DNA of 64,000 bases from Polytrichum commune (Eukaryota; Streptophyta; Polytrichopsida; Polytrichales; Polytrichaceae), in assembly GCA_950295325.1 (NCBI GenBank), contig OX485804.1, positions 3,784,001 to 3,848,000 on the forward strand, given 5' to 3'. The first letter of the stretch is position 1, and each line of letters opens with the position of its first letter. The position numbers and the translations under genes are program-made. The notes under the pieces were generated by a model. It made no database searches. It was not told where the DNA came from and saw only the letters and a program-made list of their open reading frames with translations. Shown piece after piece: positions 12,476 through 56,896 of this stretch.

Positions 12476-13288
12476 GCTGCTAAGTGTTGCGCAGACAACG
12501 TGCGCACGAAGGTAAGAGGCAACGCTTAGGGTTTAGAGGATAGCGGCAACCCTTTTCGGACTCTTCTGGGGCATTCACATCGAGGGTTACCCTCTGGTAC
12601 ACGTGGGTAATGGTTATTGACTTCGCATTTTTACTTCCGTGTCAGAACCCATTGTTTGTTTGGATGTCATTTTGGACATCCAATGTGTCATGTGCATATC
12701 CCAAACAATGTGTGAGTGTGGGGAATGGAAGTGGCGTACCTGAAACGTGCAACATACTCCGTGCGCTATGCCACCCATATGACAACAATACATATGTACA
12801 TTGCATTCAATGTACACAACCATCCAGCGGAAAGGAAAATTCGCTAGTGTCTTCCAACATTTGTTGCGTGTGCCATTCATTGGGGAATGGTCATGTCGGA
12901 CACCCAAGTCCACACATGTGTTTGTATTGAATGCACTACTATGTAGTGCATGCATCTTCGTTTTCGTGTCACACAAGATGACACGTTGGTCAGGAACTCG
13001 TCAAAAATGACGCCCATGTGGACATCTATGATGACATGTTTGCAATTGGTCTGCATGTTTTGGTTGCATTTCGAAAGAGGTATAGTAATCCCTATAAGAC
13101 TTTGATGTAGTTGACAAGGGTGACAACATGTGTAGGCCATTTTGGTATGTGTCCTTTGTGGAACACGACCTCAAAAAGAATTTCCTGATTTGTTGCGTGC
13201 CTGTAAAGGTGGGGATGTGGTGACCTTTTTGTGTTCGCCTTTGCGAACAACATTTGAGACTAAGTGATCACAATATGAGTTCACATTC

Positions 13289-16200: not shown

Positions 16201-16596
16201 AGCATAGCGGAAGGTTATTTAATGGACGACACGCTTGGTTTTTGCACGGAGTACATGCATCAATACAGAGGAACAACACATCGTGTATGGGACGCCGAGG
16301 AGGACGCAATCATGAATGATGAGATTCTCCGTTGCAATTCACAACAAAAACGGAAGATGTCCGACGAGTTCCGCAACTACGCGCACGCATTTGTTTTGGA
16401 CAATGCGTCTTCATTGGAGCGCTGCAGACAGTTAGTGAAATCCGGACTTTCTTATATTCCTGCCGTCATTGATGTATATTGTCGTCACATGCAATGTCCT
16501 GTGACATGTCCATGTGGACATGCTTCCCTACGTGAGGTTGTGTTAGACAAGGTGTTCCTATTGACATCCTTTTCGACATTCACACGTCAAATGTGA
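13289..16596 (+). CDS. CACTA transposase TNPD (Tnp2 family with DUF4218)
   Basis: Exon 1 (13289-15040) encodes 584 codons: an N-terminal transposase-associated region with CPCLDC, an acidic linker, then the Tnp2 core (KTHYAARKSIRRLGL, ALDGVNPFRLNNTNWSTWPV, LISGLTCKGYKGCPCC). Intron 15041-15269 (donor GTGATG, acceptor GTGCAG) joins in phase to exon 2 (15270-15617; ILDVMHCEKNLCESLLKTL). Intron 15618-15876 joins in phase to exon 3 from 15877, which carries the DUF4218 region (FPPTFMNVMTHLPVHLVEQL, CRWMYPIERYLKTLK). Exon 3 probably splices on before the open frame ends at 16596, because typical C-terminal sequence reappears downstream. The reading frame is free of stops through these exons. TNPD performs strand cleavage and joining in CACTA transposition. 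Confidence 0.85.
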
Positions 16597-20235: not shown

Positions 20236-23200
20236 TTAGCCCCAATAAACTTGGTCAAGAGGTCCACTACCCTTGTGTTTGGAAAATTTTCCAACTGCCT
20301 TGACTTTCATCTCTGGAATATATTGGAGGGGAACAGCTGAACATTTACATTTCCCATGTATGAATGTCCCATTTGTAGGTGTTAGCGTGCACGTAAATGC
20401 ACCACCACTTATGAAGAACGTAGCACCACAGACAATGGCTTGCATCTCTCTGGATTTCCAGAAGTAATCCTTTTCATTGTAATCAATTTGGTCACCAATC
20501 ATGTGTTTCCAACAGTCGTCACATTCGGGTAATCCTTGGAGCTCCTTGTGAAGGACCATGTCTTTCAACACATTTCGGCCTTTGCGAATAATTTTCTCGG
20601 CAAAACGGATTTTGACAAAACGGGAGGAGTTTGACAAAAACTCTTGCCCCACATGTATCTTTGATTGATTTCGTGTTACATCTAACGAGCTCCCCTGCAG
20701 AGAGCTTCTGAAAATTTCTGACACTGCACCTGGTTTGCCTTCGATAATGTCAGTGAGGAATATAAATCTCTTGGTCCGCTGGTCATACATGAAAGCCTGC
20801 ATGCGATTGCCATTATCGTCGTTTCTGATAAAGAAATAATCTTCTGCACAATGGCTTATGTTACCGTTCTTTAGTTTCACCTCCACCAAACGGTGCACTT
20901 CATCTCGTGACTCCGGAGGCACAACTATTGTTCCTGGCATTGCCATACCCGACAAAACTTTGCACATCTCATCCTTCACCAGGCGTGTACAAGCTTCGGG
21001 TCGAGTCTCCCATGCTCCACTGACTTGGAACCCTAGAAGTCCAATTCCACCACCCCAAGTGCGTTTGAAAGCCATGAGCGCTGCTGCATCAACTTTTTGA
21101 GTCTCTTCAGCTGTTGGATGTTCAGGTAACAAGAGTTTTCTACCCAATTGTTTAATCAATTCTTCCATTCTCTTTTCCTCAATTTTGACAGTTGATGATG
21201 ATTCAGCTGTTGGATGTTCAGGTAACAAGAGTTCTCTACCCACTTCTCGGATCACATCCTCCCTTATCTTTCCCCCAATTTTGACAGTTGATGATTCCGC
21301 TGTTGGATGTTTAGGGAACAGAAATTTTCTATCCAATTCTGGGATCACATCCTCCGTTCTCTTTTCCTCTGTTTTGACAGTTGATAATGTAGTTTGTTGT
21401 TGTGGTCCATTCTTCGCTTGCTTGAGCTGTACTATACTCCTGTCCATATCTTCCCATACAACATCAAGTTCAACAATTAGGGCCTCTTCAGCTGTTGGAT
21501 GTTCAGGTAACAAGACTTTTCTACCCAATTCTTGGATCGATTCTTCCATTTTCTTTTCCTCGATTTTGACAGCTGATGATGTAGTTTGTTGTTGTGGTTC
21601 ACTCTCCGATAAATGGACTGGCTTGGCCTGTGTAGCACACCAGAGTCCTTTACGTCCATCTCCTCTCCATACAACATCATGTTCAACAATTAGGGCCTCT
21701 TTTGTAAAGAGGACATGGCATGCTTTGAGATTACATGTGCTACCACCTTCTTCAGCCTCACACTCAATATGCCCATCATCTCCAGTCCATTGTAACTTAA
21801 AATGTTGATGTCCTGCTGCAAATGCAAAAGCCACCATCTGGAGAGCATTGCATTGTAACCTTGAATATTCAAGAAACCTGCTGTCTGGCAAACCACTCAA
21901 AGCTCTCCTTGCACACGTCGACCGTTTCTCACATGTGCCGTGTCTTTCAAGAGCAAATTTATGGAAATGGCCATCGTAGCAGGTCCCATCCTCATGCAAA
22001 CAACTCACCCTTGTAAATCCATCCGTTGTTGTAACTTGCGTTGTCCCTATGTAACTCACATGTGTATCTTCACAAAACATCCGGTGCTTGTTATCATATG
22101 CATCATCGATGAGCCCCTTATACAAAAGCATTCCTGTGAGGTCGTGTCGAATGACACACCATGTAGTACATCTTGTTTCATCAAAATCATAAGGATCTCC
22201 TTCCACTATACAGATGAGACCTCCAAGTCGGTAGATGCTGTCAAGATCAACAAGATCGTTCCCCCTCCATCGTAATGGGAGTGAATCCCATTCAAGTAGC
22301 ACATTGTTCATCCGGTTTTGCAAAACCGTAGTTGCTGCTGTTGATAATATGTGTAGGGGCATACCCCTTATCATCAAGTTTTCGTCAATATTTTTAGAGA
22401 AAATAGCATGAGCAATGCTCTTTTCCATACCTTCCTTAATAATATTGGCTTCATCCCAAACGACTTTTGATGGTGGCCACACATCATCAATGCCCACCAC
22501 TTGGCTTGCCCATTCCTGCAACTCATTGATCGTGGTTTGTATGGAAGTCACAAGAAGTGAAACCAACACACTCGCTTCTTTAGGCACTCCAAGTCGCAGT
22601 CGCTCAAGGTCCTCAACATTGTACTCGTGAAAATTCTCAAGGTGTGTCATTTCCGTGCTACAGTGCATTGCAGGTTTTGCAAATGTTGTTTCCTAAACAA
22701 CGAGACAGTAAGCAAGCCTGAGTTCAACAAAGTTTTTGTTTTGAGACGCGTACTATTTGGAGCATGAGAACAAACAACTTCGGTATGATACAAGTACATT
22801 CCTTGATAAACAGCACACACTACTGTTGGCCAACTTCCATCAAACTCTGAGCTTTTGAAAAACTGCCGAAGCCATTTGTCTTCGTGAAGGACACCTCCAA
22901 CCTTCATCAGACTAAAGAGGATAGAGACCTGCAAACACCACGTGTATGTTACATGTCATGTCATATTTATCATAAACTGTCGATTATGTAACGGTAGGAA
23001 CACATAATAAATGTAAAATCTAGGTAATCCAAGAATGGTTCCTCTCCTTTTTAGAACAGTTTCTTCTGAATCACCTCTAATACTTCAAATGGATCAATGA
23101 TTTGTTGGTTTGCAAAGAGGAGAAACATGCTTGAAAAGACTGCGGCATTGAGAGGAATCCGTTCATATAATTTGTGTTAGAATTAGAAAGGGCTTCCTTC

Positions 23201-26122: not shown

Positions 26123-27199
26123 TTACTTCACATTATCTAACCAATATTGAAACAAAGCCTTTCTGATTCTATTTCCTGCACGGGCAGATGTTCTTTCTGA
26201 TGGTTCTCGATCTTCTGTTTCAGGGTACCTATCATTATTATTGGGCATGGTATCAATATAATCATGTGGTGACATTAGTTGTCTATCATTACAATTATAT
26301 CTACAAAAGTTATGTAGCACACAACAAGCAGTGATTACAATTGCAGCATATTTGACGTCAACATTTAGGTTTTTAAAATTCCCCACCTATTGTTAAGGAT
26401 ACCAAAGGTATTTTCAATTTTGACATTTTCTTGTCTAATACACTTATCAAAGGCATCTTGATCATCATGTCCAGACAACTTTGCATTGAAAGGCTTTTGA
26501 ATTTGTTGCAATAAAGGATAAGTTGAATCCCCAATAATATAGGGTTTTATAGTTTCACCTTCAATATTGATGTTAGGTTCTTGTAATATTCGCCTTCTCA
26601 TTAGTTTTTTTAAAAACGCTGATGATCACATGTGTGTAGCATCATGAGTGCCCTCCGGCACTGAAACACAAACATCCAAAAAATTTGATTACTATCACGT
26701 ATTCCTTGTAGCAATATTGTATGTACATCATGTCGACACTAATAATCTGGCAGAGTATATTTTTTTGGGGTTTCATGTATAATTTAACATGGGAGCCATC
26801 TATAGCACCACATATTTGAGGCAATTTAGTTATACGATGAAATCCACGTATGATATCTTTCAATTTTCTGCCAGTTGGAATACCAATAAATTGTGTATAT
26901 AATTTATCTTTGTCTACCAATGCATTACATATTAGCATCAAATACTTCAAAACTGCTGTTTCTCCAACGCCAAACATATTTCCAACGTTTTGGTTTGTTC
27001 CTGCATGAGCTAGTTTGTGAAGAACTATTGCAACTGTTTTCTGACCAATAACAAAATCTTTGTAATTTTTATTTTGATGTTCAATGTAAAGTTTCAAAAG
27101 ATCACAATGCTTAACGAATGTACTATATTTCATACGAAAATCTCTAAACCATATTTTATCTCGTATTTCATTATCCAGTAGATAATTTTTTTGATACAT
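26123..27199 (-). pseudogene. PIF/Harbinger transposase (DDE_Tnp_4), frameshifted
   Basis: Three minus-strand frames together give a HARBI1-like nuclease. The N-terminal part (27199-26642) has KDIIRGFHRITKLPQICGA and the first catalytic Asp in AIDGSHVKL. After frame changes near 26750-26640 come GTHDAT, YIIGDSTYPLL with the second Asp, and VKIENTFGILNNRWGIL with the Glu. The last frame (26386-26123) has AAIVITACCVLHNFC. All three catalytic residues are present, but at least two or three frame breaks inactivate it. The usual partner, a Myb/SANT protein, lies divergently at 28486-29640. Terminal inverted repeats could not be located. Confidence 0.85.
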
Positions 27200-27680
27200 G
27201 ACGTCCCATTGATGAATTGATTTTCGAAATGTCTACCACCGCCTTCTTGGCAATGTTTTTTTTCTTGACCTCTTAATTTAAAAAAAAATCCTAGCCATAG
27301 CACAAGAATAAAGGAACAATATTAGGGATATGTTCTTCATAGGAAACTTCAAATAACAACTTTACTTCCATATCCTATAATTTTGATAGAACTTACGTAA
27401 ACTATAAATCTAAAATATGAAATTATGTGAAGATCAAATGAACTTAATAACAAAAAAAAATACGGGAATTACATATAGTATTTTAAGGTCGGTAGTAAAA
27501 ATGTTTTTAAAAAAAGTACACAAAATATTGTTATGACATCACATTAGCATAGAGATGAAAGGACATAAAGATTTATATATAAAGATTTATTTTAAAAACA
27601 TGATATTTACAAAAAATAAATTTAATAATTAAACTAAAAATATCCTAAAAGTAAAAAAAACTTAAACCTATAAAAGCACT
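27200..27680. other. AT-rich spacer inside the PIF/Harbinger element
   Basis: Very AT-rich, no coding potential. It separates the transposase from the inserted hAT-like element. Confidence 0.5.
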
Positions 27681-29855: not shown

Positions 29856-29995
29856 GATATCTAATGTATACCATGATGACGAGGGGCATGAGTTAGCATG
29901 AGGAAGGGTGAAACATAGGGACACATTGTGTGTGTATAAGGTAGATGAGTCTTAGTACTAATTGTGTGTTTCGCATCACATGAGAAGTGCGTGCA

Positions 29996-30002
29996 TATAT
30001 AA
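29996..30002 (+). promoter_or_regulatory. possible TATA box
   Basis: TATATAA in a mixed context at the start of the GC-richer leader. It could place a start site near 30030 upstream of the retrotransposon leader. There is no independent support. Confidence 0.25.
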
Positions 30003-30029
30003 GTGTGTCCATTGAGACTCGAGATTGGG

Positions 30030-31492
30030 CGTGAAACCGGCGTTGTGAGTGGCGAGAAGGGCCTGCAGGGCCTCGGTGAGGTGAACCCTTAGAAACTCGA
30101 AAGGCTGCTGGAGGCTAGGGAGTGGGAAAGTTGAAGCGGCACAGTGTGTTGCTCCTCAACATTTCCCTAGCCACCCACCTCTTGAGGAACTGAAGGGACA
30201 CCCTGCTCCGAGCCCGATCTCACACCTCAACATAAATACCCAATGTAGGCTACCCACACACCCACTTCGAAGGCAACAGAGCCACAGAGAGGAGAGACAG
30301 ATACCACACTTGTCGAAGTAGCTGCCGGAGACAAGAAGAGGGATTCGAAGTCTTGACCAGATCCACAGAGAAGAAACATACACTATAGTTACCGAAAGGA
30401 GCTGCCGGAGGAGGTAACTGGGATTCAAAGCCTTGCCGAAGGAGCTGTCGAGAGGCCACACCGAAATACGATCGCCGAAACTCAGATTTGAGCCATCACC
30501 GGCACCACAGTAGCACGTGTATCTTCGTAGTCTCACTGTTAGTATAGAAACCTTCAAGTATTAGCCTAGATCTACAGAGGACTCACTAGAATACAAATTC
30601 ACTGAGAGAAGACAAAAGAGGTGACAGAGAGGCGACTAGATCTACTGCTGCCGAAGGAGTTGCAAGAAGCGAAGCCGTGATCCGGAGGCCTGCCGCAGGA
30701 GCTGTCGGGACCACACCGAACTCACTGAATCTCAGCGCACCGAATTTACCGAACTCCGAAACTCAGCACATCGGAACCCAGATCACCGAACTCAGATCAC
30801 CGCCGAATACACCGAACCCTACCACCGAACACACTGAAGATTGTCGTTGCTGCTGGGAAAAATTATTGCTGCTACTGTGTCCATTGCGACTGTCGCTGCT
30901 GGAAGCGGATGTAGCAGCACGGGGAGACTCAACAGACACCAGGCGACCGAAGTGGGAGAAAGGAGCTGCGTAGACAGGCATCACCGGAAAACTGCAGAAA
31001 GCTAAGCAGTTGGAGCCTAAGGTGAACTTACCAGAGCCGAAAGTAAACATCAGCTAGCCGAAATCACCTGACCGAACCAAGAGAGACAGAAGAGCATTAC
31101 GAGGCACACAACCATTGAACCAACAACGAAGGATAGAGGCACCACCGAGGCAACAAACGGGACAACGGGTGTCTAAAACTACTGCCGCTGCTACAGAGAA
31201 ATTTCCTACTGCTACTGGGTAAGCTTTGCTGATAGCGGACATAGCAACACTGAGCGACTCAACAGACACCAGGCGAGGTAGCTGTTGGAGCTGCTAAACA
31301 AAGGCGAGGAGCACCGTCACACACATTTGAAGCTGCTCAAGTTAAACCCGAGGAGCTGCCAGAAGCCAGGAGCAGCGGATCGGAGGTGCATCGCTAAGAG
31401 ACTTCCAGCACACCTGGGATTTCACTAACTAGAGCGGAGGAGCTGCGAAACTACAAAATTGCGGAGCTGCCTGCCACCTCCCTCGCTACCAG
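30030..31492 (+). other. retrotransposon leader with internal repeats
   Basis: GC-richer than its surroundings, with no long plus-strand frame. It repeats the theme CCGAAGGAGCTGCCGGAG at about 30310, 30395, 30440, 30645 and 30695. A second pair shares GACTCAACAGACACCAGGCGA at about 30927 and 31256 (one word per copy). It ends in CTACCAG before a GTAAGC donor at 31493. Probably 5' UTR and promoter of the element. Confidence 0.5.
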
Positions 31493-32063
31493 GTAAGCCT
31501 TCTCAGCCCTCCTCTCAAGCACACACTTAGAGCACACACTTAGAACACACACTTAGAGCACACACTTAATTAACAAACAAACTCTCTTGATTTCATAGTT
31601 GACACACACATAGGCACTTAGAAGCACACACATAAGATTAGTTAAGCACACAACACTTGTAATTTATTAGAAGTAGTAGTAGTTGCACCTAGTAATAAGC
31701 ACATAGAATTGCTAGTTATTGTTAGGTTAGATTAAAAATGAAGGTTGCAACCGCATCATGCCTTGTTCTCATGTGGCTCATTACCACACTATATTGGAAT
31801 AACTCTCACAGCGTCCTCTCTCACACTCTATGGAAATGTTATGCACAAGCATGTTTTACTGCTATACCTACATTTAAAGGAACATCTAACCGAATTGCAT
31901 GGTATTTTGTAAATAATGGTAAGCAACACACACACATAAATAATAACATCTTCCTAATACCCCCCCTACAAAGCCCACTTATTCATAAGTGGAAAGGGAA
32001 TGGGTTGAGGAGCAAAGAAAATGTACTGAAAACATGCAATAACAACATACTCTACTTTTGCAG
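31493..32063 (+). other. possible spliceosomal intron before ORF1
   Basis: Donor CAG|GTAAGC at 31493 and acceptor CTTTTGCAG ending 32063 bound an AT-rich stretch. The next bases are A then ATG (32065), which opens the conserved-looking part of ORF1 (MAYARSLEKS). Inside are four copies of a CACACACTTAGA-like 13-mer (31515-31568). If spliced, the frame starting at 31738 is not the true N-terminus. Confidence 0.45.
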
Positions 32064-33678
32064 AATGGCATATGCTCGTAGTCTTGAAAAGTCATTGGAT
32101 GGGGTAAAAGATATGGAAGTAACTCAAACAAAAAAGAGGACATCAAGTAATGCATGCCTAACTATTGTTGATAAAACTAAAAATCGGCCTAGCACACAAG
32201 GAAAATCCCTTCCGTTGTGGCTTGGATTCAAAGCAATGAATGCTTTGAATGCAAGCAACAAACTAGCAAAAGAAAACCATAAGAGTGTTAGTGAGCTAGT
32301 CAAAATGGGCATGTATGAAGGAGAAGCACTAGAATGCCAAGATAGTGTTGTCTCATACCCGTATGTACATCAAGAATTATGGCCTAGTATGAACAGCCTA
32401 GGTAAACAAAACTATCATCACACACAAATTCCTTCAGAGATAGAAACTTGTGATGGCTTTGCAATGGATTACCACGTAGCTTTATTCTTTGAATTAGATG
32501 AGATGATTATGCCCAAAGAGGAAGCACTTATAAGCATCACCAAAAGGTTGAATGAAATGAAAATCCCTCTAGGTGATGATATAAGTGACCCAATCGCTAT
32601 AATGTGCACACATGGAGGCAAGCAATGGTCGGGACATGCTAAAATACATTTAAAAAATATACAAGAAGATGGTATTCCCATGCATCTAGGACTTAGGCCA
32701 TTTATTATCCGGCTCCCGGATAATAAATTGCACAGAGGTAAAATTTGTAAGTCTTACGACACCATTGCCTCAAGTGAGATGTTATCAGTCAAAATTACCA
32801 CTGATAGCATCAAAGATGAGACATGGTACAAAGTATTTGATGAAGTGGTAAAAGAAGGATTTCATAGAGGGCACAATTTTGAAATTACCCATGTGCGAAA
32901 AGGGGAAAGTCACAACTTTGCTTGGATCGTTGCAACTAGCCCGGAACAAGTAGAAAATATAAGAAAGAACAAAATAACATTCGGGCATGAAAGCATTGAT
33001 GTTACGATAGGAAAACCCTCGGGCGACGACTTAGCTAAAAAGAATGCACTCATCCTCATTGCAAAAAATTTAAATAGATTAAAACCTAAAGAGGTCCTTG
33101 AAACCGAAATAAGGGCATGCATGGGTGAGAAAAACGTCTTAAACATCTTCTTTAAAACGGATGACAAAGGCAAACTCACCGGTGTATGCAATGTGCAATG
33201 TTTAAGTGCGGCGGTCTATAAAAATTTTGTAAAAAAGAATCATAAAATATATAATAAATATGTCGAATTTGCTCCTCACCCAAAAAGCTTAGATGGGATA
33301 TCTAAACCTTCGGGAGAGGAGCTTACACGACTAGGCTTTAACGATATGAACACCGCGTTAGCAAACACCGTAGAAGCCATGGAAAATGCCCCATCCAATG
33401 GACTAAGAAAGAAAGACATACACCAAATGGTTGAGGAAGCTGTGGCCAAAGGGACCGCTATAGTGAGAGATGAGATGCAAACCATGGAGACTCGCTTAAC
33501 AAGCCAAGCGAAAAACTTTGCAATATACGCGGCAAAAAATGCAGCTAGGGCACTCAAAAAAGACATGGCCACACTCCGACAGGCCCTCACCAAAACCATG
33601 GCAGCCTCGGACTCCTCGGAAATGCTCGACAAAGAAGACTCATCAAGCGACAAGGAAGATTTAATGGCGATAAACTAA
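31738..33678 (+). CDS. retrotransposon ORF1 protein, RRM-like
   Basis: Open frame of 646 codons with ATG at 31738. The first 109 residues are hydrophobic then low-complexity and may be an artefact of reading through an intron; the better start is 32065 (537 residues). The segment around residues 434-525 (NALILIAKNLNRLKPKEVL to KYVEFAPHPKSLDG) has the alternating pattern of an RRM fold. A preceding segment (LSVKITTDSIKDETWYKVFD, ITHVRKGESHNFAWIVATS) may be a second such fold. The C-terminus is alpha-helical and ends in an acidic Ser/Asp tail. ORF1 proteins of non-LTR elements bind element RNA as chaperones. There is no CCHC knuckle. The frame is intact, unlike ORF2. Confidence 0.7.
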   Translation: MKVATASCLVLMWLITTLYWNNSHSVLSHTLWKCYAQACFTAIPTFKGTSNRIAWYFVNNGKQHTHINNNIFLIPPLQSPLIHKWKGNGLRSKENVLKTCNNNILYFCRMAYARSLEKSLDGVKDMEVTQTKKRTSSNACLTIVDKTKNRPSTQGKSLPLWLGFKAMNALNASNKLAKENHKSVSELVKMGMYEGEALECQDSVVSYPYVHQELWPSMNSLGKQNYHHTQIPSEIETCDGFAMDYHVALFFELDEMIMPKEEALISITKRLNEMKIPLGDDISDPIAIMCTHGGKQWSGHAKIHLKNIQEDGIPMHLGLRPFIIRLPDNKLHRGKICKSYDTIASSEMLSVKITTDSIKDETWYKVFDEVVKEGFHRGHNFEITHVRKGESHNFAWIVATSPEQVENIRKNKITFGHESIDVTIGKPSGDDLAKKNALILIAKNLNRLKPKEVLETEIRACMGEKNVLNIFFKTDDKGKLTGVCNVQCLSAAVYKNFVKKNHKIYNKYVEFAPHPKSLDGISKPSGEELTRLGFNDMNTALANTVEAMENAPSNGLRKKDIHQMVEEAVAKGTAIVRDEMQTMETRLTSQAKNFAIYAAKNAARALKKDMATLRQALTKTMAASDSSEMLDKEDSSSDKEDLMAIN

Positions 33679-34620
33679 ATAAACTCAACACTTCAATACC
33701 AAAAAAATACCAACAAAAACAAAATAAAAAGGTATTTATAAATACCCCCCTCAAACAAAAAATACTTATCAAAAAATCAAAAAATAAAAACAAAACTAAT
33801 CATACACAAAAATATATAAAACCAATACATATCACAACACTTAAAATACTTACCCCTAACCTTATTAAAATATTTATCTCAACTCTTGAACAAAATCCCT
33901 TAAAACCATATACCAAAACAACTATATACCAAACCAAATACCAAATCAAATACCAAAATCCAACCAAACCACAAATCAAACACCAATCCAAATACCTACA
34001 TCTTTCCAAATACCAACACCAAATAAAATACCAAATCAAACACCAAAAGCAAACCGAATACCAAATCAAATACCAAATCAAATTCCAATACCAAATCAAA
34101 TACCTACTCCAAATCATATACAAAACCAAGTACCAACACCAAAACAAACACCAAAACATATACCAAACTAAATACCAAACCCAATACCAATATCTAAATC
34201 AATACCCAACCAGATATCAACACAACCACCCACAACTATACCAGCACCAAAACCACCACCAACACCAATATAAATACCACACCCAAAACCCAAAACTAAC
34301 AACTAAACTCCTTGTGACACACAACTACCATCCAATATTACCTAGCTTATATTTCACAAGCAAATACATACTTACACAAAATCGCAAAATGACCGACTCA
34401 AAAGTTAAACACTACCACGAACACTACTTCATCAACAACAACGCTATAATAAAATATTACACAATAACACTAAATACCATACAAAAAACACATATAAACA
34501 CAATATTCAATAATACTCCAACTAAAATAAAAACCAAAACCAAATCACTTACCAAACACGTCAAAATTAATAACCAAACAACACAACACAACAAATAATA
34601 AACCTACAAAACACCACCAA
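33679..34620 (+). repeat. A/C-rich, G-depleted spacer between ORF1 and ORF2
   Basis: About 0.95 kb made almost wholly of A and C with irregular repeats of CAAATACCAA and AAACCAAATACC (densest 33890-34270). G is very scarce on the plus strand. Near 34340-34470 the plus strand reads YFTSKYILTQNRK and HYFINNNAI, a decayed duplicate of the segment before the 2A motif in ORF2 (TTKFILNKYKK, GYYFINKLT). Confidence 0.85.
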
Positions 34621-34623
34621 CTA

Positions 34624-37600
34624 ATGCCTTATACACCTGGGCAAGGCGGATTGCTCACACTTACAAATAATAAAACGGCCTCGGCCTCCCGGCCTCGCCA
34701 CAAAACTAAAAACAAATACCAATTCACAAACATCTGGGCACCCAACAAAATAACAAATCACGAACCTAAAAGCAACACAAGTACACACTTTCCAACTAAA
34801 CAACTAGCAAATATAATACCCGCTTTACCTAACCTATTTACTACAACTAAGTTCATACTCAATAAATATAAAAAAATACATAAGAAAAAACCAAAATTAC
34901 TTCAACTCCACGGATACTACTTCATCAATAAATTAACATTATTGCAATGCGGAGATATAGAACCTAACCCCGGACCAATGCCTGATATCCTACACACACA
35001 CCCCGCTACACATAAAAAAAGAGCCAAAACATATTTTATCCCAAACACAATAAAATTTCAACCAGAGTACCAACATATAGCAAACACGTTCGCTCCCATA
35101 CTAAAACAGAATCACCCACTACACCACCAAACAACCATCATATATCCATACCTACATCAATACATCCTAATACAAAGTCATTCCCAATCAACTCATATAC
35201 TATATGCCTTAGTCATTACGATAAATCCCTCAATAGACACATGCAACAACATATTAGCCCAACCCCGCATTTACCACTTTAACGATATATGGACCAACAC
35301 ACTAATCATTAGACTAGCCAACCTCAACAACCCTCCCGAGCGACACATCCTAACACAACACCCATACACAATATTTGTTGAAAATAACCAAGATATAATA
35401 CACCCCAAAAACTCTATACATACCGAGTTATATAAATTTATCCACAACCAAGAGACTCCACCTACACTAACCATACTCCAAAGGAAATTCCCCTTTCTTC
35501 CTATAAAACTGATTACTGAGTCACTCCGGTGCTTAGAAAACATAGACGAATATTCACACCCACCACCACTCCCAAACATCCCCACACCAGCCCCAAGAAC
35601 AATTACAAACACTAACCACGAAACAAATATAATAACATGGAATGCCTCGTCACTTAACACAGCCTTACCAAACCTAAAAAACTTAATAAACCATTCCTTT
35701 AGCAACATAGCGATTATAAATATTCAAGAAACCAAACTCACAGCAACTAAATCCACAAAATACATTCAGAACCAATTCCCTGAATACAAGCTCATTTTTA
35801 ACAACACACACGCCCTCACAAGATGCATAAAACAAAGAATGCCTTACACCCCGGGTAGAGGTGGTCTTCTCACACTTATTCATAACAAATACGCATTTCC
35901 TGGGAATGTTACCAAGACACCCACACCAGCAAATATCTCCCCTTATCTACAAATAATAAAAATACACAACCATCCTCTCTTGCCATGGCTAATCATACAT
36001 ATGTATATGCCCACACACGTAGATGACACCCACCTCATTCCCTACCTTAAAACCACAATCATCAACCAAATAACTGCGCACCCAAACCACACGCACATTT
36101 TATGTGGAGATTTTAATAAAGATATTGCACTCATCGGAAGACAAAATAACAACAATCATACGCCACCACAAGAGGACGACATTCAATGGAAAAACTTTAC
36201 TACAACCCTAAATCTAGAATATATTCCAACAAACACTAACTTTTCAAGACAAGGAAGTTATAATTACACGTCAACCAACCTTATCGACGGTTTCTATATC
36301 AACTCACCAGATAACAACAGATTCGCCTCTACAACTAATACAAACATAAATCTAAATTCAGACCACTATCCAGTCACATTACACATACCTCAAAACTTAC
36401 TTATAGCTAGACCACCACCCCCCGCAAATATTACACCAACTAGAATATTAAATCCAATCCCGCCGGAAAACTTAGAGAAATTTAATATAGAAATTTTTGA
36501 AGCAAATACCACGCAAATAAACGAACTAACCATCCTACTAGAAAATCACAACAACCTCACCCCTGATCAATGGCAAGAAGCTTGTACATCTTTAGACAAC
36601 ATTATAGAAAAAATTTCAGTAACCATTGAAAAACCTGCAAAGTTGCCCCAATACCAACCCTTACAAACAAAACAGCTCAGCAAGGCGGTTTTCCACCACG
36701 GAAACTATCCAAAGAATGGAAACGACACCTCGACACATACCATCTTATTAGAAAAACGATATACATTGCAAGAAACAACCCACACTAGCAAGGTCATCCC
36801 ATTTTAAACGAAATCCGTAACCACCAACACGTACAAATTCCGCATCCACCTACAACAACCACCCCCCCAAATGAATGGATTGACACCATAGCCGCTATCG
36901 CAAAAACCTCCAATAAAGAAGCCAGAAAAATCACCACAAAATACACCAAACACTATATTCTAAAAGCCGTATCAAAATACCGCCAAATGTATGAAAAAAG
37001 TTCCAAAAAGATAAATAGGAAAGTCTTTAAGCACTCCGAAACCTCACCCCTCGACTCCATCACGGATAGACAAAATAACATATTAACCAATCCTGAAGAT
37101 ATTGCGAAAGAAATACACATTCAACAATCCATCAGTAATCGTCCAACAGTACCCACATGCTACTATCATAACATTCACCCACCACACTACACATGTGGCG
37201 TTAGGCAATACCCATGGCATGACTTAGAAGGATTCACAATTGAACAGCGGGGAGAACCCCAAACCCCCCTGCACACATACTTTGACCAAGAAACATACGA
37301 CCTCTGCCTCAAAAACCTAGGAAACAATAAAGCCCCAGGACCGGACAAAATTCCTAATTCAATCATAAAGAATATGCCTCCACGTTTTCACAAGATACTC
37401 TTTCTATTCTTTAAACATTGCTACAAACAAAAACAAATTCCCGCCTCCTGGAAAAACTAGTCTAACGGTCTTACTATACAAGAAAAGTGATTCATCACTA
37501 CTTACCAACCATAGATCTATTGCACTAGCTAACACCATATACAAACTATACACAAGCACATTAACTTCTATTCTCTCAGCTTATGGTGAAAGACACCAAA

Positions 37601-40600
37601 TACTGCATGATAGCCAAGAAGGATTCAGAGCAGAACAAGGAACATCCACACAACTTCAACTCCTCATTGCAGCATTGGAAGACGTAAGATTTACAAACCA
37701 AGATATATATATCTTCTACATTGATTTAAAAACACTTTCGGTTCCATTGATCATGTAAGACTCTTAGCCATAATGAAAGACCTTGGATTCCCAATAGATG
37801 TTATAAACCTCATCGGTAATATATACTCACAATCCACTACTATATATCTTGGAGAATACTTCGGCAAAATCCTACCCATCCCCATTCAAAGAGGTACAAT
37901 ACAAGGAGACACTCTCAGCCCCTACTTATTTTTAATATTCTTAGAACCCCTCCTTAGATGGTTACAACAAGGTGACAACGGATATACCTTTGGAACTTCC
38001 AAAATTAAAATCACATCCGCAGCATATGCCGATGACCTAGCAATGATTGCCAACAAATTAAAATCCTTACAAACCCAACTAAACAAATTAGACAAATTCT
38101 GCGAATTTGCGGAAATGGACCTTGGAATATCCAAGTGTGCAGTGACCGGATGCCCCAATAAATCTAAAATGAACCCCATAACATTCAAAGCCCTGATTCA
38201 ATCCACTAATATAAACTATAGAAACCAACCATTACCAGTCTTAGATCAACATGAACCATACACCTACCTGGGAATCAATCTCGCACCATCCCTTAAATGG
38301 AAAACACAAATTAATACCACTACAGCTAAAGTTATTAAACAATGTCAAGCCCTTGTAGCATGCCCAGCCACCATGAAACAAAAAATCAACATGACAGATA
38401 CAGTCATATGTGCTGGTATAGCCTACAGCTTTTACGCAGTACCATACTTTATTCCGGCTATCAAAAAACTCGATAAGAAGATTATAGCACTTCATAAAAC
38501 AATTTGCGGATTACCAAAAAGCACATCTAATATCGCTACACAACTCCCACACGATCTATTCGGAATTGAAGCATTCTCTCTACAAAATGCCCTCAATGAC
38601 AAAGGTAGACTTGGTAAAATCTATCATGGCTTAACACAATTTATACTTGCAAAATTTGGAGGTTCCAAAGAAATAACCCGCATTAAATATCACCATTGTG
38701 TCAGATCACCTATCACGAGAACGCTATTCCTACTTAAACATGAAGCCGGAGTCCACCTAAAAAGTACAATAAATAGCTTTTTATTAAACCCATCCACACT
38801 TGAAACTGCATGGTTGAAAGAAGCTCAAAACCTACAGGGCCTAAACCCAACACTTCGCTTAAATTATTACAAAAACTCCTATTGCACAATATAATAAAAT
38901 TAGAACAAATAATCATGCCCAATGGCACAACCTTAATGAACCCAGACGATTTTAAAATATACCACTCCAATCCTACAAAAATCATCAAAAGTGCATTAAA
39001 CATTGCGAATCAACTATTTTGCCACCCTTCCTGCCACCAAGACTGCCACCTACCATGCCCACACCACTACCCCCCACAAACCTTAAAGAATGATTACACA
39101 ATAATAAATCATACCATCCTCCCTCAACACCCAACCCCCCCAATACACCCCCCAAACCCCGTATCCCCCACCTACCCCCGCCTCCCAAAAATATGCTTAA
39201 CAACCCCCGTCAATTTCCTATACACACAATACTAGATCACAAACAACGACAACTAATAGATTCTAACGGGATTAAAAGAAATGACACATCATACCTATGC
39301 CAATGGACTACAACAAATAATACCAGATACAACAAATGGCGCACCCAAAGAGAGCTATTTCCCTATTGTGATACCTATACTAGTTGCCACAACACCGAAC
39401 TACTTACCCAATATTATACGAAAAGACAACACAAATTCTTCACAAATATCGTCAACACATACTTCTCCACGGAACAACTAAGAGATACCAGATACGTTAT
39501 CCCTGCCACAATAATTCCATTGGCACATATCTCCATTAATGAATGCAACCCAGAGAGTGACATCGAAACAAATACTAACACTATCCAAACACAATTCGAC
39601 GTCGCTCACATATATGAAGACAACGGCCGGCACCTCATTACCATCCCAAAAACTAGATTATTCTGGCTATGGAAACAATACCATCAAGCTAAAGATACCC
39701 CACATAATCTAGAACCACCTACCCAATCATTTGAAACTGAAATCGTGTGGCTATACCAAAGGTATAAATACCGTATTCCAAAAATGACCCACTTAAACGT
39801 GCCCAATATACTATACCAACTCCAATATTAGATTTCCTAATAACGTCATTTAACATCAACCATTCATACTTCTCATCCCCAGTTACTTGTTCCACACAAT
39901 TCACCCAATTCCACTCACCATTCTCTAGGGATAGAATATTTGGATCCCTAGGAAAAACATTTGACCAAAAATGGAAGGGAATTGGTTACGCCCATCCCCA
40001 TAACGCAACAGACTTACAACAAGCCATCCATTGGGCCCGCATTGCGGCCAAAAACGACCCAAATACAATCACTATACTTATCTCAAAAGATATGGATTGG
40101 TACCATAACTTTAACCCATACACTGGCCCATTCTTGGACACACACATCATTGCCCATTTTGCAGCAGACACCATCATATACGAAGAACCCACAATTCCCC
40201 CCGAACTCAATATCACGAGGAAAGAATTATCAACACTACGAATATTCTGTATCCACCACCAAAACAATCACATCGGTACCTACGAACAAATGAATCAACT
40301 CACCAACATAGCAAATAACCTCCAAATATTACAAATTCACACACAAATTGCACCACCCACCCCCTTAAATACCGCCGTTAATCCTAGCAAAAGATGGGCT
40401 AAATCTAACTATCCAAACACACCCAATAATAATAACATACTTATTTCACAATTCCCTAATTACCAAACCAACTTACCATTAAAATTCCATCCACAATTCA
40501 GCTACTATACAGACGGTTCTTTTATGAAACCCAAAGAAATTAACCCTGGAGTATGGAGAAGAGAAAGAGCTGGCTATGGAATCTATAGCCCAAAGGGCCT

Positions 40601-41963
40601 TAACATCTCCAAAAGACTACATGGACTCCAAAACATACTACGAGCAGAAATGATAGCCATACATGAAACACTAACAATCATTAATACACTATATCCAAAC
40701 GAACCCGCCTACATATTTACCGACAGTCTCAATGTATTATACTTACTCAACACACAAATTAAACACCCCACACTTCACAATAGCCACCCTGACCAAATCA
40801 CCCTCGCCACCATGGTACAACTTCTTCAAAACCGAACCCAACCAATCACATTATACAAAGTCAGAGCACACGTCAACATTAACGGCAACAAACAAGCAGA
40901 CAAATTGGCAAAAGAAGGGCCAGAACTAGAGCACAGAATTGCCATTCACCCATATGAACATGCCCATGCCACCCCATACTACTACCAAAAGGACGTTTGG
41001 GCCTCAATGTTGGACGTTCCTGATAAAGGCCCTGTTAGATTCCTAGAAAAACAAATTATTAAATACGACAGGGAAAACAACTTGGAAAACATGGCCACAC
41101 AAACCCCCAACACTTACAAATGGATAGGAAATGAAGATATAGACAAAGAACTTTCTAACGAATTCTGGGAAAACCCGGAAATCACGGATAAACAAAAATC
41201 ATGTCTCATCAAATTCCGAACAGGAACCTATATGGGCAATGCTCGAAAACAACTGTTCTTCGGTAGACAATCATATCCCTCTATTACGTGCCCCATTTGC
41301 AACTCATACGAACCGGACACGTGGTTACATGTACTACTTACGTGTAAACAACAACATATACATTCACTTCACGTCAAAAGACACAACAAAGCTGTTTGGG
41401 AAATTAGGAAATTACTAATCTCATCTGAAAAATCTCCATGTTACATTCTCATGAACGTTGGCACCTTTAATAATACATCCCAGGAAAACACCGTTCCCAA
41501 CTGGCTACTCCCTTGCACATGCAGTACACAAAGATGCCATTGTAACTCCAGATTTAGACCTGACATCCTTTGTGTTAGAGGACTACCGTACCAAAATGAC
41601 CCCCCCACAGACATGGACCCCAACCTCACCATACAATTCATCGAATTCACATACTGTAATGATAGATTCTCTCCAGAAACACTCGAAGCAAAAAATAACA
41701 AATATAAATCATTAATCGATAGTATTGCTGCTAGAGGATGGAAAGTTGACCCCCTTATTATAATCACCGCATGCGCTAGAGCCACTACACACATTCCTTC
41801 AATGAAATCACTCGAAAATAAATTTAAAATACCTATGCCTATCATTAAAAATACTTTTAAAAACATCAATACTATCGCTATTAAATATGCCATGTCTATC
41901 CTCCTACACAAAAGAAGAATAGAAAACCACCAACCCCTACCCCAAACACTAGACCCCCCATAG
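34624..41963 (+). pseudogene. retrotransposon ORF2: 2A, APE, RT, RNase H, CCHC, RLE (frameshifted)
   Basis: About 2,440 codons if restored. In order: GDIEPNPGP (34951-34977); APE endonuclease from about 35630 (ITWNASSL, NIQETKL, GDFNKD, SDHYPV); RT (NNKAPGPDKIPNSII; FRAEQGTSTQLQLL; YIDLK and FGSIDH split by a shift; QRGTIQGDTLSPYLFL; AAYADDLAMI); RNase H from about 40500 (YYTDGSF, LRAEMIAI, FTDSLNVLYLL, AHVNINGNKQADKLA); CCHC finger near 41290 (CPIC to WLHVLLTC); RLE (KRHNKAVWEI, RFRPDIL, IQFIEFTY, KNNKYKSL), matching the PD-(D/E)xK endonuclease layout of R2-type elements. Frame breaks occur near 36690, 37455, 37733, 38875 and 39830, plus stops. The apparent Met at 34624 lies in a short copy of an APE segment found again at 35840, so the true start is uncertain. 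Confidence 0.85.
34951..34977 (+). other. 2A-type ribosome-skipping motif (GDIEPNPGP)
   Basis: Codons 110-118 of the ORF2 frame encode GDIEPNPGP, preceded by LTLLQC and followed by Met. It fits the D(V/I)ExNPGP consensus exactly; skipping would fall between G (34972-34974) and P (34975-34977). It would release an N-terminal peptide from the APE-RT polyprotein. 2A motifs at ORF2 N-termini are known in some animal and trypanosome non-LTR elements. Activity here is inferred. Confidence 0.85.
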
Positions 41964-42204
41964 ACAAAGCCATAAAACTTTGGTAACTAAGCCACTCTAC
42001 TACATCCACTAACAAATGCACTAGAGACTTGGCGACCCAAACCATACTAACAATCCCCCCTAAAAACTAACCATTTTGGTTCTTGTTACTAGTAACTGGT
42101 GACTATAGTGTCTACTCTCGAAAGGGAGGAGTAGATCTTTACCTCCATACCTTTGTCCTGTGGGCATCGGATTGGAGGAGGATCGAACAGACACTTCATT
42201 CACG

Positions 42205-42280
42205 TCGGTCTCCTCCAGAGACCGAAGTTTTTCTTCTTTTTTCTTCTTGATGACGAGGTTGGGTGTATGGACACCTAGTC
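42205..42280 (+). other. 3' UTR hairpins and T-rich tract
   Basis: TCGGTCTC (42205-42212) pairs perfectly with 42218-42225 across a 5-nt loop and is followed by a T/C tract (TTTTTCTTCTTTTTTCTTC). Next, TTGATGAC (42246-42253) pairs with GTCATCAA (42273-42280), with an inner GGTGT/ACACC pair. This may be the structured 3' end of the retrotransposon. Confidence 0.6.
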
Positions 42281-42377
42281 ATCAACGGTAGTGTCATTGT
42301 AAGGTAACTACCAATATTGATGGATAATTGAATATTCTAACCACATGTGCCAGTGTATAAGCGGAGGATGATTGGAG

Positions 42378-48832: not shown

Positions 48833-51800
48833 TTAGCCCCAATAAACTTGGTCAAGAGGTCCACTACCCTTGTGTTTGGAAAATTTTCCAACTGCCTTGA
48901 CTTTCATCCTTTGAATATATTGGAGGGGACCAGCTGAACATTCACATTTCCCATGTATGAATGTGCCATTTGTAGGTGTTAGCGTGCATGTAAGTGCACC
49001 ACCAGTTTTGAAGCGCGTAGCAGCACAGACAATGGCTTGCATCTCTCTGGATTTCCAGAAGTAATCCTTTTCATTGTAATCAATTTGGTCACCAATCATG
49101 TGTTTCCAACAGTCGTCACTTTCGGGTAATCCTTGGAGCTCCTTGTGAAGGACCATGTCTTTCAACACATTTCGGCCTTTGCGAATAATTTTCTCGGCAA
49201 AACGGATTGGGGAAGAGTTTGACAAAAACTCTTGCCCTACACGTACCTCTGATCGATTTCGTGTTACTTCTAACGAGCTCCCCTGCAGAGAGCTTCTGAA
49301 AATTTCTGACACTGCACTTGGATCGCCTTCAATAATGTCAGTGACGAATATAAATCTCTTGGTCCGCTGGTCATACATGAAAACCTGCATGCGATTGTCA
49401 TTATCGTCGTTTTTGATAACCAAATAATCTTCTGCACAATGGCTTATGCTGCCATTCTTTAGTTTCACCTCCACCAAACGGTGCACTTCATCTCGTGACT
49501 CCGGAGGCACAACTATTGTTCCTGGCATTGCCATACCCGACAAAACTTTGCACATCTCATCCTTCACCAGGCGTGTAAAAGCTTCGGGTCGAGTCTCCCA
49601 TGCTCCACTGACTTGGAACCCTAGAAGTCCAATTCCACCACCCCAAGTGCGTTTGAAAGCCATGAGCGCTGCTGCATCAACTTTTTGAGTCTCTTCAGCT
49701 GTTGGATGTTCAGGTAACAAGAGTTTTCTACCCAATTGTTTAATCAATTCTTCCATTCTCTTTTCCTCAATTTTGACAGTTGATGATGATTCAGCTGTTG
49801 GATGTTCAGGCAAAAAGAGTTCTCTACCCACTTCTCGGATCACATCCTCCCTTCTCTTTCCCCCAATTTTGACAGTTGATGATTCCGCTGTTGGATGTTT
49901 AGGTAACAGGAATTTTCTATCCAATTCTGGGATCACATCCTCCGTTCTCTTTTCCTCTGTTTTGACAGTTGATGATGTAGTTTGTTGTTGTGGTCCATTC
50001 TTCGCTTGCTTGGGCTGTACTATACTCCTGTCCATATCTTCCCATACAACATCATGTTCAACAATTAGGGCCTCTTCAGCTGTTGGATGTTCAGGTAACA
50101 AGACATTTGTACCCAATTCTTGGATCGATTCTTCCATTCTCTTTTCCTTGATTTTGACAGTCGATGAAGTAGTTTGTTGTTGTGGTAGACTCTCCGGTAA
50201 ATAGACTGGGTTGGACTGTGGAGGACACCAGCGTGATTTACCTGCACATCCTCTCCATACAACATCATGTTCAACAATTAGGGCCTCTTTTGTAAAGAGG
50301 ACATGGCATGCTTTGAGATTACATGTGCTACCACCTTCTTCAGCCTCACACTCAATATGCCCATCATCTCCAGTCCATTGTAACTTAAAATGTTGATGTC
50401 CTGCTGCAAATGCAAACGCCACCATCTGGAGAGCATTGCATTGTAACCTTGAATATTCAAGAAACCTGCTGTCTGGCAAACCACTCAAAGCTCTCCTTGC
50501 ACACGTCGACCGTTTCTCACATGTGCCGTGTCTTTCAAGAGCAAATTTATGGAAATGGCCATCGTAGCAGGTCCCATCCTCATGCAAACAACTCACCCTT
50601 GTAAATCCATCCGTTGTTGTAACTTGCGTTGTCCCTATGTAACTCACATGTGAATCTTCACAAAACATCCGGTGCTTGTTATCATATGCATCATCGATGA
50701 GCCCCTTATACAAAAGTATTCCTGTGAGGTCGTGTCGAATGACACACCATGTAGTACATCTTGTTTCATCAAAAACATAAGGATCTCCTTCCACGATACA
50801 GATGAGACCTTCAAGTCGGTAGATGCTGTCAAGATCAACAAGATCGTTCCCCCTCCATCGTAATGGGAGTGAATCCCATTCAAGTAGCACATTGTTCATC
50901 CGGTTTTGCAAAACCGTAGTTGCTGCTGTTGATAATATGTGTAGGGGCATACCCCTTATCATCAAGTTTTCGTCAATATTTTTAGAGAAAATAGCATGAG
51001 CAATGCTCTTTTCCATACCTTCCTTAATAATATTGGCTTCATCCCAAACGACTTTTGATGGTGGCCACACATCATCAATGCCCACCACTTGGCTTGCCCA
51101 TTCCTGCAACTCATTGATCGTGGTTTGTATGGAAGTCACAAGAAGTGAAACCAACACACTCGCTTCTTTAGGCACTCCAAGTCGCAGTCGCTCAAGGTCC
51201 TCAACGTTGTACTTCTTAAAATTCTCAAGGTGTGTAATTTCCGTGGCTACAGTGCATTGCAGAGTTTGCAAATGTTGTTTCCTAAACAATGAGACAGTAA
51301 GCAAGCCTGAGTTCAACAAAGATTTTGTCTTGTGACGCGTACTGTTTGGAGCATGAGAACAAACAACTTCGGTATGATACAAGTACATTCCTTGATAAAC
51401 TGCACACACTACTGTTGGCCAACTTCCATCAAACTCTGAGCTTTGGACAAACTGCCAAAGCCATTTGTCTTCGTGAAGGACACCTCCAACCTTCATCAAA
51501 CCAAAGAGGATGGACACCTGCAAACACTACATGTATGTTACAAATCATGTCATATTTTTTATAAGACTGTCGATTAATTATGTAACGGTGGAAAGACATA
51601 ATAAATTTAAAATCTAGGTAATCCAAGAATGGTTCCTCTCCTTTTTAGAACAGTTTCTTCTAAATCACCTCTAATACTTCAAATGGATCAATGATTTGTT
51701 GTTTTACAAAGAGGAGAAACGTGCTTGAAAAGAATGCGGCAGTGAGAGAAATCCGTTCATATAATGTGTGTTAGAATTAGAAAGGGCTTCCTTCTTCAAA

Positions 51801-55480: not shown

Positions 55481-55581
55481 TACAGCTAAGGGCGGTTACC
55501 TTTTGGTCCGCCCAAAGCTTAAATGGGTGAGGGAGGCCCAGCTCCTCACTCATATTTCATCGCTTTCAAATACAAGTCAAT

Positions 55582-56896
55582 ATGGCCACGAGGGAGGAGG
55601 ATATGATTTTAGTTTTTTTTGCCTTCATGGTGGTATTTCTCACATTTCCAATTCGTAGAGCGCGTGTGCGACCAACATTAGAATTGTTGGATGGAAGTGT
55701 AGGGGCTAGGTATTTTCCTTTAGTTGTTGTTTATTCGTGGATGCTACGTTTCCCGCAAAGATTGTGGTGGGTAGAACCAAAACAAAATATTCATTATGAT
55801 GTTGTTGAAGGAGATGTGTGGCATACTACCCCGGATATGTTAGATCGGAAATACTGGCAGACTTATAGGATGAGTTTTCTAGCATTTGAACAGTTGGTTG
55901 CCGAACTAACACCATTTTTGCGTCCTACTGCGCAGATGTTTGTCAGGCCTCCTATACGTATTAAGAAGCAAGTGTGTTTAGTTCTGTACCGATTAGCCCA
56001 TGGTTATTCTTGCAAAGCCATGAATATGTTGTATGGTTGTGAGGAATCTACCATTAGAAAATATACCCTAATTGTTTGTAGAGTATTATCTTCTAAAAAT
56101 GGACTATTTGGTGCGTACATTCACGCACCTAGAGGGCATAGGTTAATGGATGTTATCCGTAAGTTCAGAGATCTTACCGGCTTGCCTAATATGGTGGGTG
56201 CTATAGATGGCACCCACATACCTTTGTCTCTTAGGCCTCAAGGGGGTTTAACCCCTATGCCTTGTGTTTTTTCAATAGGAAAAAATTTCATAGTGTGTTA
56301 TTGCAAGCAGTGTGCGATGCAGAGGGATTTTTTTGGAATATGTGTGCAGGGCAACCCGGTGGAGTGCATGATGCCGCTCAGTTTGTTTGGTCAAAAATCT
56401 ATACGCAATTGGGAACACGAGAGATTTTACCAAAGCCAATTTTAGAAATTGGTGGATTGGAAATTCGACTATACTTGCTTGGAGATTCCGCCTATCCTAG
56501 TCGCCCTTATCTGCTGAAGAATTTCAAGCCCAATGTCAATGATCCCAGGTTTCAAGATAAAAGAAGGTTTGATGAGTCATTGAATTCTGGCAAAGTTGTG
56601 ATTGAACAAATTTTTGGAGCATTGAAGAATCGATGGAGAATTTTGAAGAATTTGAATATGGGAGTAGACAAGGCTGCTACAATCATTTTGCGTGTTGTAT
56701 TTTGCATAATTACTGCGAGATATTCTCAAAGCGAGTTCCATTGCCAGACAATTTCAATCAACGTGCCGATCATTTTGTTGGAGTACGTAGGGGACCTTTA
56801 AAAGTGTCTGCGGATGGTCGGGCTGGTAAAGTAGCGGGAGAACAGATGCGGGCAGCCCTGTTTGAAGCTTGGGTTGCAAGAAACCCATTTTTATGA
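55582..56896 (+). pseudogene. second PIF/Harbinger transposase, two frameshifts
   Basis: ATG at 55582 opens 288 codons including a helical N-terminal region (KQVCLVLYRLAHGYSCKAMN), GLPNMVGAIDGTHIPLSL with the first Asp, then a shift near 56265. The next frame gives FNRKKFHSVLLQAVCDAEGF, PGGVHDAAQF, LYLLGDSAYPSRPYLL with the second Asp, and VVIEQIFGALKNRWRILKN with the Glu. A second shift near 56695 leads to FACCILHNYCEIF and the C-terminus at 56896. It is diverged from the 26-27 kb transposase, so it is a separate element. The Myb/SANT gene at 60662-58909 may be its partner. Confidence 0.88.

Follow-up and report, generated by a model that had tools for sequence, protein, structure and literature searches.

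A LINE family of the moss Polytrichum commune with an APE endonuclease and a putative restriction-like endonuclease in a Dualen/RandI-like layout

Can one retrotransposon protein of a land plant carry two DNA-cutting enzymes? This question is raised by a stretch of 64,000 nucleotides from the moss Polytrichum commune (assembly GCA_950295325.1, contig OX485804.1, positions 3,784,001 to 3,848,000), here called the window, in which all coordinates below are counted. It holds a non-LTR (long terminal repeat) retrotransposon, i.e. a long interspersed nuclear element (LINE), whose second open reading frame (ORF2) encodes, in this order, a 2A-like motif, an APE endonuclease, a reverse transcriptase (RT), a chromodomain-like segment, a PCIF1-like segment, an RNase H, and a CCHC zinc knuckle with a putative restriction-like endonuclease (RLE). 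The dual-endonuclease LINE family is real and recently active. The explanation that we prefer, with a probability of roughly 0.8, is that it is a native and autonomous LINE of the moss genome, with the layout of Dualen/RandI, that moves by target-primed reverse transcription. The Dualen/RandI non-LTR retrotransposons reportedly go back to Kojima and Fujiwara in 2005. According to the literature, which is cited here from excerpts throughout, Dualen/RandI carries both APE and RLE (PMC3636483, PMC4640811) as well as RNase H (PMC4640811). It is listed for green algae alone (PMC4438587), occurs in all species compared within the core-Reinhardtinia (PMC8226300), and is reported, as LINE/Dualen, in cryptophytes (PMC12747079). 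A search of the open-access subset of the literature, with Repbase outside its scope, found no report of Dualen/RandI in a land plant among the papers listed.

The upstream endonuclease is encoded at 35620-36519, where Pfam and alignment locate the motifs QETK, GDFNKD and NSDHYPV; like all parts of the element with a direction, it lies on the plus strand. The window copy matches PF14529 (E 3.5e-6) and PF03372 (E 1.2e-4), both slightly below the curated cut-offs. APE models score above cut-off in the relatives L050 and L052 (genomic loci bear L numbers), and an APE family was recognised by Pfam in three of the four long ORF2s scanned (L050, L052 and L006). For the fourth, L001, Pfam reported no APE model; the corresponding region nevertheless shows 80% identity with the APE region of the window and preserves the motifs. 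The RT (37269-38645; Pfam, alignment) is broken in frame in the window copy and has YADD; RVT_1 matches its main piece with an E value of 4.7e-15 and the intact L001 with 2.6e-29. RNase H follows at 40473-40955 (PF00075, E 6.3e-14; alignment A5). RVT_1, RNase_H and PCIF1_WW were found in all four long ORF2s, the latter two in L001 with E values of 4.6e-13 and 3e-10. The ORF2 of the window copy undergoes about six to seven frame changes, and Pfam recognises its APE, RT and RNase H within frames spanning 31726-41963. A pattern scan placed the 2A-like ribosome-skipping motif, ending in CGDIEPNPGP, at 34924-34977. When 13 loci were scanned, eight had the pattern D(V/I)ExNPGP; not all of the remaining loci cover the region, but L005 spans it without matching. 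In L051 two 2A-like motifs, GDIELNPGP and GDIEINPGP, stand 267 codons apart in one ORF2 frame (168-1022, plus strand), an arrangement reminiscent of a duplication of the N-terminal unit.

An earlier note, written from the letters of this DNA alone, had named the N-terminal APE, the RT, the RNase H and the 2A motif, and all of these are borne out by the motifs and Pfam matches given above. It had further placed two endonucleases in a single element, and indeed APE, RT, RNase H and RLE share one open frame in several copies. Its inventory of domains was nevertheless incomplete, as the chromodomain-like and PCIF1-like segments had been overlooked. Dualen is also reported to carry a cysteine protease; Pfam scans of the window, L001, L050, L052 and L006 detected no such domain.

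When the moss LINE is compared with Dualen/RandI as described in the excerpts, it becomes clear that both have an APE upstream and a PD-(D/E)XK enzyme downstream of the RT, an RNase H, and a 3' tail of short tandem repeats. The host, however, is a moss and not a chlorophyte, the likeness is one of layout, and the excerpted Dualen/RandI descriptions mention no PCIF1-like, chromodomain-like or 2A features. The RT itself points to R2. R2 has a single endonuclease, lacks APE and RNase H, and inserts in rDNA. Among solved LINE RTs, three R2 sequences are the best matches of the moss RT profile in the PDB (2.2e-32 for 9nl2, 2.4e-30, and 3.4e-30 for 9dou), followed by human L1 (7e-22). We calculated an RT tree from 16 sequences: eight of the moss LINE, two R2s, human L1, four L1s of the same genome, and one degenerate sequence, L057, which we take to be plant RTE-like. 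The two R2s and the moss LINE are separated from L1 and the RTE-like sequence with a support of 96/97, and the approximately unbiased test gave p 0.044 for holding the moss LINE with L1 and 0.017 for holding it with RTE. A firm grouping of the RT with L1 or RTE, which the earlier note had set against its own proposal, was thus not observed. Two points weigh against leaning on this placement: silkworm R2 (8gh6, 2e-19) scores behind human L1, and the tree is unrooted, with few references and long branches, and includes neither silkworm R2 nor Dualen. As judged from sequence, the moss LINE appears Dualen-like in layout, with an RT on the R2 side and extra segments. The RT profile found no relative in viral contigs or prokaryote genomes. 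The sequence L057, a degenerate LINE RT, stems from NZ_CP104070.1 (18918-22568), a record called Alicyclobacillus fastidiosus plasmid with two annotated features; this record is probably eukaryotic contamination.

The same data could also be explained by a LINE of the R2 side that gained its APE independently, and which would be convergent on Dualen/RandI rather than a member of it. This fits the grouping with two R2s, and the excerpts name neither a PCIF1-like nor a chromodomain-like segment as a feature of Dualen. On an unrooted tree without Dualen, however, the grouping also fits a Dualen position between RLE and APE LINEs (PMC4640811), and the combination of APE, RLE and RNase H is that of Dualen/RandI. 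Moreover, the (CTAT)n tails of the moss LINE resemble the (ATT)n or (CTATTT)n tails of the eight green-algal RandI families (PMC3747384). We consider an independent gain of APE unlikely, yet it is the competing account that survives best.

Whether the moss protein has a second endonuclease depends on its C-terminal module. A CCHC zinc knuckle of the form C-X2-C-X9-H-X4-C is seen in the alignment at 41289-41345. It precedes the candidate endonuclease core at 41379-41804, in which motifs and profiles mark RHN, PD (41559-41564), E (41643-41645) and KxxKY (41691-41705); the whole CCHC-RHN-RPDI-E-KxxKY stretch covers 41289-41705. Nine members, 40-85% identical to the window, were aligned, and the residues C, C, H, C; R, H, N; P, D; E; and K, K, Y are invariant in all nine, as are 85 of the 336 columns overall. 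In RLE LINEs, a CX2-3CX7-8HX4C knuckle is followed by RH, PD, D/E, and KX2KY with a catalytic first K, and by GXW after the fourth strand (PMC5678591). The moss order of RH, PD, D/E and KX2KY equals this order, and the succession CCHC-RHN-PD-(D/E)-KxxKY is common to R2 and the moss module. The latter differs from R2 in the X9 spacing of the knuckle and in a CxCx4CxC cysteine cluster (41514-41543) between RHN and PD, which is invariant in nine of nine members and absent from the three R2 endonucleases compared.

Profile comparisons are consistent with this assignment. With hhalign, the moss module matched three solved R2 endonucleases with P 8.2e-5 and a probability of 60.8 when the deeper alignment was used, and with P 0.0039 and a probability of 8.6 for the shallower one, against P 0.34-0.88 in the controls (other domain profiles versus the R2 reference; RLE versus PCIF1), those set beside the P of 8.2e-5 having 0.73 and 0.52. 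Smith-Waterman alignment to the three R2 endonucleases yielded z scores of 5.9, 3.4 and 3.6, which were reached by 0, 4 and 3 of 500 shuffles; the other five regions, compared in the same way 15 times, gave z 2.6 once (PCIF1-like) and otherwise at most 1.2. An hmmsearch with an R2 RLE profile placed five of the 15 members of alignment A1 above all 20,000 shuffles, albeit weakly (best E 0.21). Several results weigh against an endonuclease. In that same search, five further members and the L001 ORF2 ranked among the decoys within the best 25 matches, and the remaining members, including the window, did not appear among these 25. The knuckle spacing is X9 in all nine members, compared with X7-8 in the excerpt of the published description, and by eye no GXW was found after the fourth strand in alignment A7. 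Pfam gave chance-level matches only (E at least 0.13, in at most three members), PDB sequences gave no match up to E 10, and single-sequence AlphaFold prediction of the window module (pLDDT 34) gave no usable structure. The RLE profile also found no relative in viral contigs.

One could hence regard the C-terminal module as a mere LINE-linker CCHC knuckle with a dead or unrelated tail and no working endonuclease, and the poor database matches, the failed structure prediction, the missing GXW and the R2-profile scores of most members, which fall among the shuffles, would agree with that. APE LINEs likewise end in a CCHC (PMC5678591). But a dead tail would hardly keep RHN, PD, E and KxxKY invariant in the R2 order, nor be the region that stands out in the Smith-Waterman comparison, and its ratio of nonsynonymous to synonymous substitution (dN/dS) is low, with 0.07-0.14 in five of five pairs. 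For the pair L001 and L005 (Nei-Gojobori) we obtained 0.07 for APE, 0.05 for RT, 0.06 for RNase H, 0.08 for CCHC plus RLE, 0.09 for the PCIF1-like and 0.03 for the chromodomain-like segment; the N-terminal region ahead of the 2A motif had 0.51. The constraint on APE and RLE in this closest pair almost equals that on RT. For the distant pairs, in which synonymous sites are near saturation, the values were 0.13-0.21 for APE where covered, 0.05-0.10 for RT, and 0.09 to 0.81 for the chromodomain-like segment. A non-functional tail is in our judgement quite improbable, and the reading as CCHC knuckle plus R2-type RLE is supported by motifs and profiles. The earlier note's proposal of an RLE thus stands as far as motifs, R2 profile comparison and shuffles are concerned, and finds no backing from structure prediction or from Pfam and PDB sequence searches.

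The genome searched comprises 408 Mb in 64 contigs, seven of which are large (42-78 Mb). The plastid psaB encoded on contig C8 has its best PDB matches in the chains 6l35/7xqp, 8htu and 7ksq/7kux, which belong to the moss Physcomitrium patens, in keeping with a moss as host. With the RT of the window as query, 106 matches were scored of 2,023 first-look candidates; they lie on all seven large contigs, plus one on contig C36, and six of them reside in stop-free frames of 2,327-2,924 codons. Searches with 3'-end DNA scored 40 of 1,904 and 40 of 1,636 candidates. Copies with an intact ORF2, for which the earlier note had suggested a search, do exist: L001, L003 and L004 each have one open frame of 2,625 codons, a figure that supersedes the approximately 2,440 codons assumed before. 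On the amino acid level, the ORF2s of L003 and L004 are 98.7% and 98.8% identical to that of L001, L006 is about 60% identical, and L050, L051 and L052 are about 40-43% identical, so that even families with only about 40% identity have a common domain layout. L051 is frame-broken, and the RT of L050 has an internal deletion, RVT_1 ending at 164 of 205, which counts against the preferred explanation. Plant-type L1 elements are present in the genome as well (loci L040-L045 and L053-L056), with 141 zf-RVT matches among 150 scored of 322 candidates; four of these matches belong to frames 1,403-1,845 codons long, of which one has an internal stop.

The element of the window measures 12,363 bp (29885-42247) and was compared with four other copies. 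Its ends are defined by an 11-bp direct repeat, TGATGACGAGG, that bounds the unit at 29874-29884 and 42248-42258 (letters read directly); they replace the ends 29900-42340 given earlier. Target-site duplications (TSDs) were recognised in all five full-length copies examined, with 11 bp in the window and 12, 12, 12 and 13 bp in the others. While the 5' end was set by the repeat, the homology of L003 to the upstream region of L004 starts at the same base, plus or minus one or two positions. Our own estimate for a chance match of 11 bp is about 0.02 per copy (about 15 start positions × 6,500 bases / 4^11). As a point against the TSDs, a 12-bp match of tail letters in L003 also occurs away from the junction. 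Low-complexity tails therefore weaken the chance estimate, and since exact matches of up to 12 bp are found off the junction, the weight of the TSDs rests on their position. The idea that an APE LINE lies nested inside an RLE LINE, or that the unit is contaminating DNA or a chimaera of the assembly, to which the several frame changes of the window copy might lend some colour, was rejected as next to impossible, because the shared open frame in several genomic copies excludes nesting or chimaera, continuous frames of 2,305-2,890 codons were read within loci at separate places and in families about 40% identical, each of the seven large contigs has copies, and the TSDs flank the unit as a whole.

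The 3' end of the element is structured. At 42104-42232 the RNA is predicted to form an outer stem, inner hairpins, an ATTCA linker and a terminal hairpin, followed by a tail of TTC-type repeats (42229-42247). The last approximately 130 nt before the tail adopt the same fold in all six sequences that were folded (z -3.4 to -9.7), and L050 and L052 share it though few of their stem letters are common with the rest. For the covariation analysis, ten of the 18 tail loci inspected were aligned; close copies were omitted, as were L051, which was too short, and L017, in which no terminal hairpin was evident. Compensatory changes occur in ten of the 24 pairs, 91.2% of cells pair, and the covariation score of 0.345 was reached in none of 500 shuffles and by none of the slid versions (at most 0.138), although the sequences tested had themselves served to derive the structure, which favours it. 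In one measure, that of further pair types, the alignment did not do better than the shuffles. Rfam gave no match over the whole element. Most closer relatives have (CTAT)n tails, the window copy and L009 have TTC-type tails, and L050 and L052 have T-rich tails. The insertion sites of the 21 of 22 tails that fit the pattern (L006 did not) revealed no strong motif: beyond the tail CT, no position exceeds 0.55 bits, and a preference for T at 13 of 21 and for A or T at 19 of 21 sites at two positions may be chance. In this respect the moss LINE differs from Utopia, an RLE-type LINE with RNase H in some members, which targets U2 snRNA genes (PMC4640811).

Two further segments lie between RT and RNase H. 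The one at 39780-39981 resembles PCIF1, a cap-specific m6Am (cap adenosine) methyltransferase. In the window copy the match to PF12237 (E 2.8e-7) is slightly below cut-off, as it is in L050 and L052; the model was matched in all 11 members of alignment A2, and it scored above cut-off at 150 of 150 scored places in the genome (698 candidates). The moss segment is homologous to PCIF1 around FASPLNC...FGS.G...ANPP, and it differs in its position within a retrotransposon protein and in the loss of NPPF, the catalytic motif of PCIF1 (PMC8868631). Aligned members read HPHN, HPPN, HPHT, HPKD or FPTD instead, the window copy HPHN. Because NPPF is lost, the segment is probably a pseudoenzyme, and methylation is unlikely. 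Comparison with two PCIF1 pieces by hhalign gave P 1.3e-6, a value that is flattered, like that for the chromodomain below, since the references were drawn from hits of the family's own sequences. In the reverse direction, a 74-residue PCIF1 fragment found 133 matches in the genome up to E 1 (best 0.0028), one of them at 39810-39959 of the window (C2:3823810, E 0.22), and the two best, when cut out as loci, are copies of the moss LINE. Matches of the PCIF1-like profile in the PDB were weak (best E 0.015), and it found no relative in viral contigs. Single-sequence AlphaFold prediction of the window segment reached a pLDDT of only 32, which tells against the assignment.

The second segment (39172-39471; YLCQW ... 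W ... L) is tentatively assigned as a chromodomain, on family-level evidence. All 12 members of alignment A10 have YLCQW and, downstream of it, the W and the L, and L011 and L012, outside A10, read YMCQW; of the three aromatic cage residues, at the positions that we take to be theirs, the W of YLCQW is the only one without variation in this alignment. PF00385 matched four of ten members with E values of 0.0039-0.12, all below cut-off, and the window piece alone gave no such match. In the PDB the profile had 11 matches, and the best eight fall on the chromodomains of just three proteins (best E 0.056); hhalign gave P 2.8e-4 (controls, 0.019 and 0.27). Against the assignment stand dN/dS values of 0.60, 0.33 and 0.81 in distant pairs, as loose as in a linker. 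Capture of a chromodomain by retrotransposons is known from chromoviruses and Chronos (PMC5348765), yet these are Ty3/Gypsy LTR elements with the domain beside the integrase, while the weakly matching segment of the moss LINE lies between RT and RNase H. Among the papers listed from the open-access literature subset, none dealt with a LINE that has a PCIF1-like segment or a chromodomain.

From these parts it is reasonable to propose how the dual-endonuclease LINE of the moss may transpose. The 2A motif would split off the N-terminal approximately 285 residues. The RT would recognise the 3' fold and prime from a nick set by one of the endonucleases, most likely APE for the first strand, and RLE would cut the second strand 11-13 nt away, giving rise to the duplication. 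RNase H would clear the template, the chromodomain-like segment could tether the complex to chromatin, and the PCIF1-like segment, devoid of the catalytic motif, might bind RNA, possibly at the capped 5' end. The evolution of LINEs is believed to have involved a replacement of RLE by APE in which Dualen forms the hinge (PMC4640811), and this hinge has been placed in green algae (PMC8226300, PMC4438587) and cryptophytes (PMC12747079). A more far-reaching and rather speculative idea is that the moss harbours a land-plant LINE lineage that unites in one ORF2 protein two endonucleases, a chromatin-reading domain and an RNA-binding domain derived from a cap methyltransferase, that selects its sites by chromatin state and its own RNA by the capped 5' and folded 3' ends, and that is a living relative of the RLE-to-APE switch. 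The family bears on how non-LTR retrotransposons changed their DNA-cutting enzyme. Its high copy number and near-identical intact copies offer an opportunity to test in a land plant how the two endonucleases share their work, and domain capture in LINEs may extend to the PCIF1-like segment and possibly the chromodomain.

In the remainder of the element, a block of the 5' untranslated region is conserved at 30102-30209, as detected by blastn versus the upstream regions of other copies. ORF1 (31726-33678; open-frame list, Pfam scan) is open for 650 codons and had no significant Pfam match in the window copy, the best being RRM-like with E 0.29; in the L001 copy it is open for about 747 codons, a count that spans two abutting loci. 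In the window copy, another open frame (33549-34598) starts before ORF1 has ended and leads on into ORF2. Tandem repeats with periods of 12-90 are located at 33904-34190, near the start of the ORF2 frame, and strand asymmetry is strong beside them, with a GC skew of -0.63 at 34001-36000.

Elsewhere in the window, a CACTA-type transposon is found at 13268-16596 on the plus strand (Transposase_21, E 8.5e-62; DUF4218, E 1.3e-34). Two open frames of 818 and 897 codons on the minus strand (20236-22692 and 48833-51526) look nearly identical by eye and contain corresponding tandem repeats of 93-96 bp; neither has a Pfam match at E 0.01, and the pair looks like a duplicated gene or repeat. Frames at 55531-56801 (plus) and 26642-27232 (minus) resemble by eye what we presume to be Harbinger-type transposases, judging from their motifs; a Pfam scan of their pieces 55531-56442 and 26645-27232 was negative at E 0.01. 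Finally, a Myb/SANT-like frame (E 3.3e-12) is encoded on the minus strand at 60171-60797.

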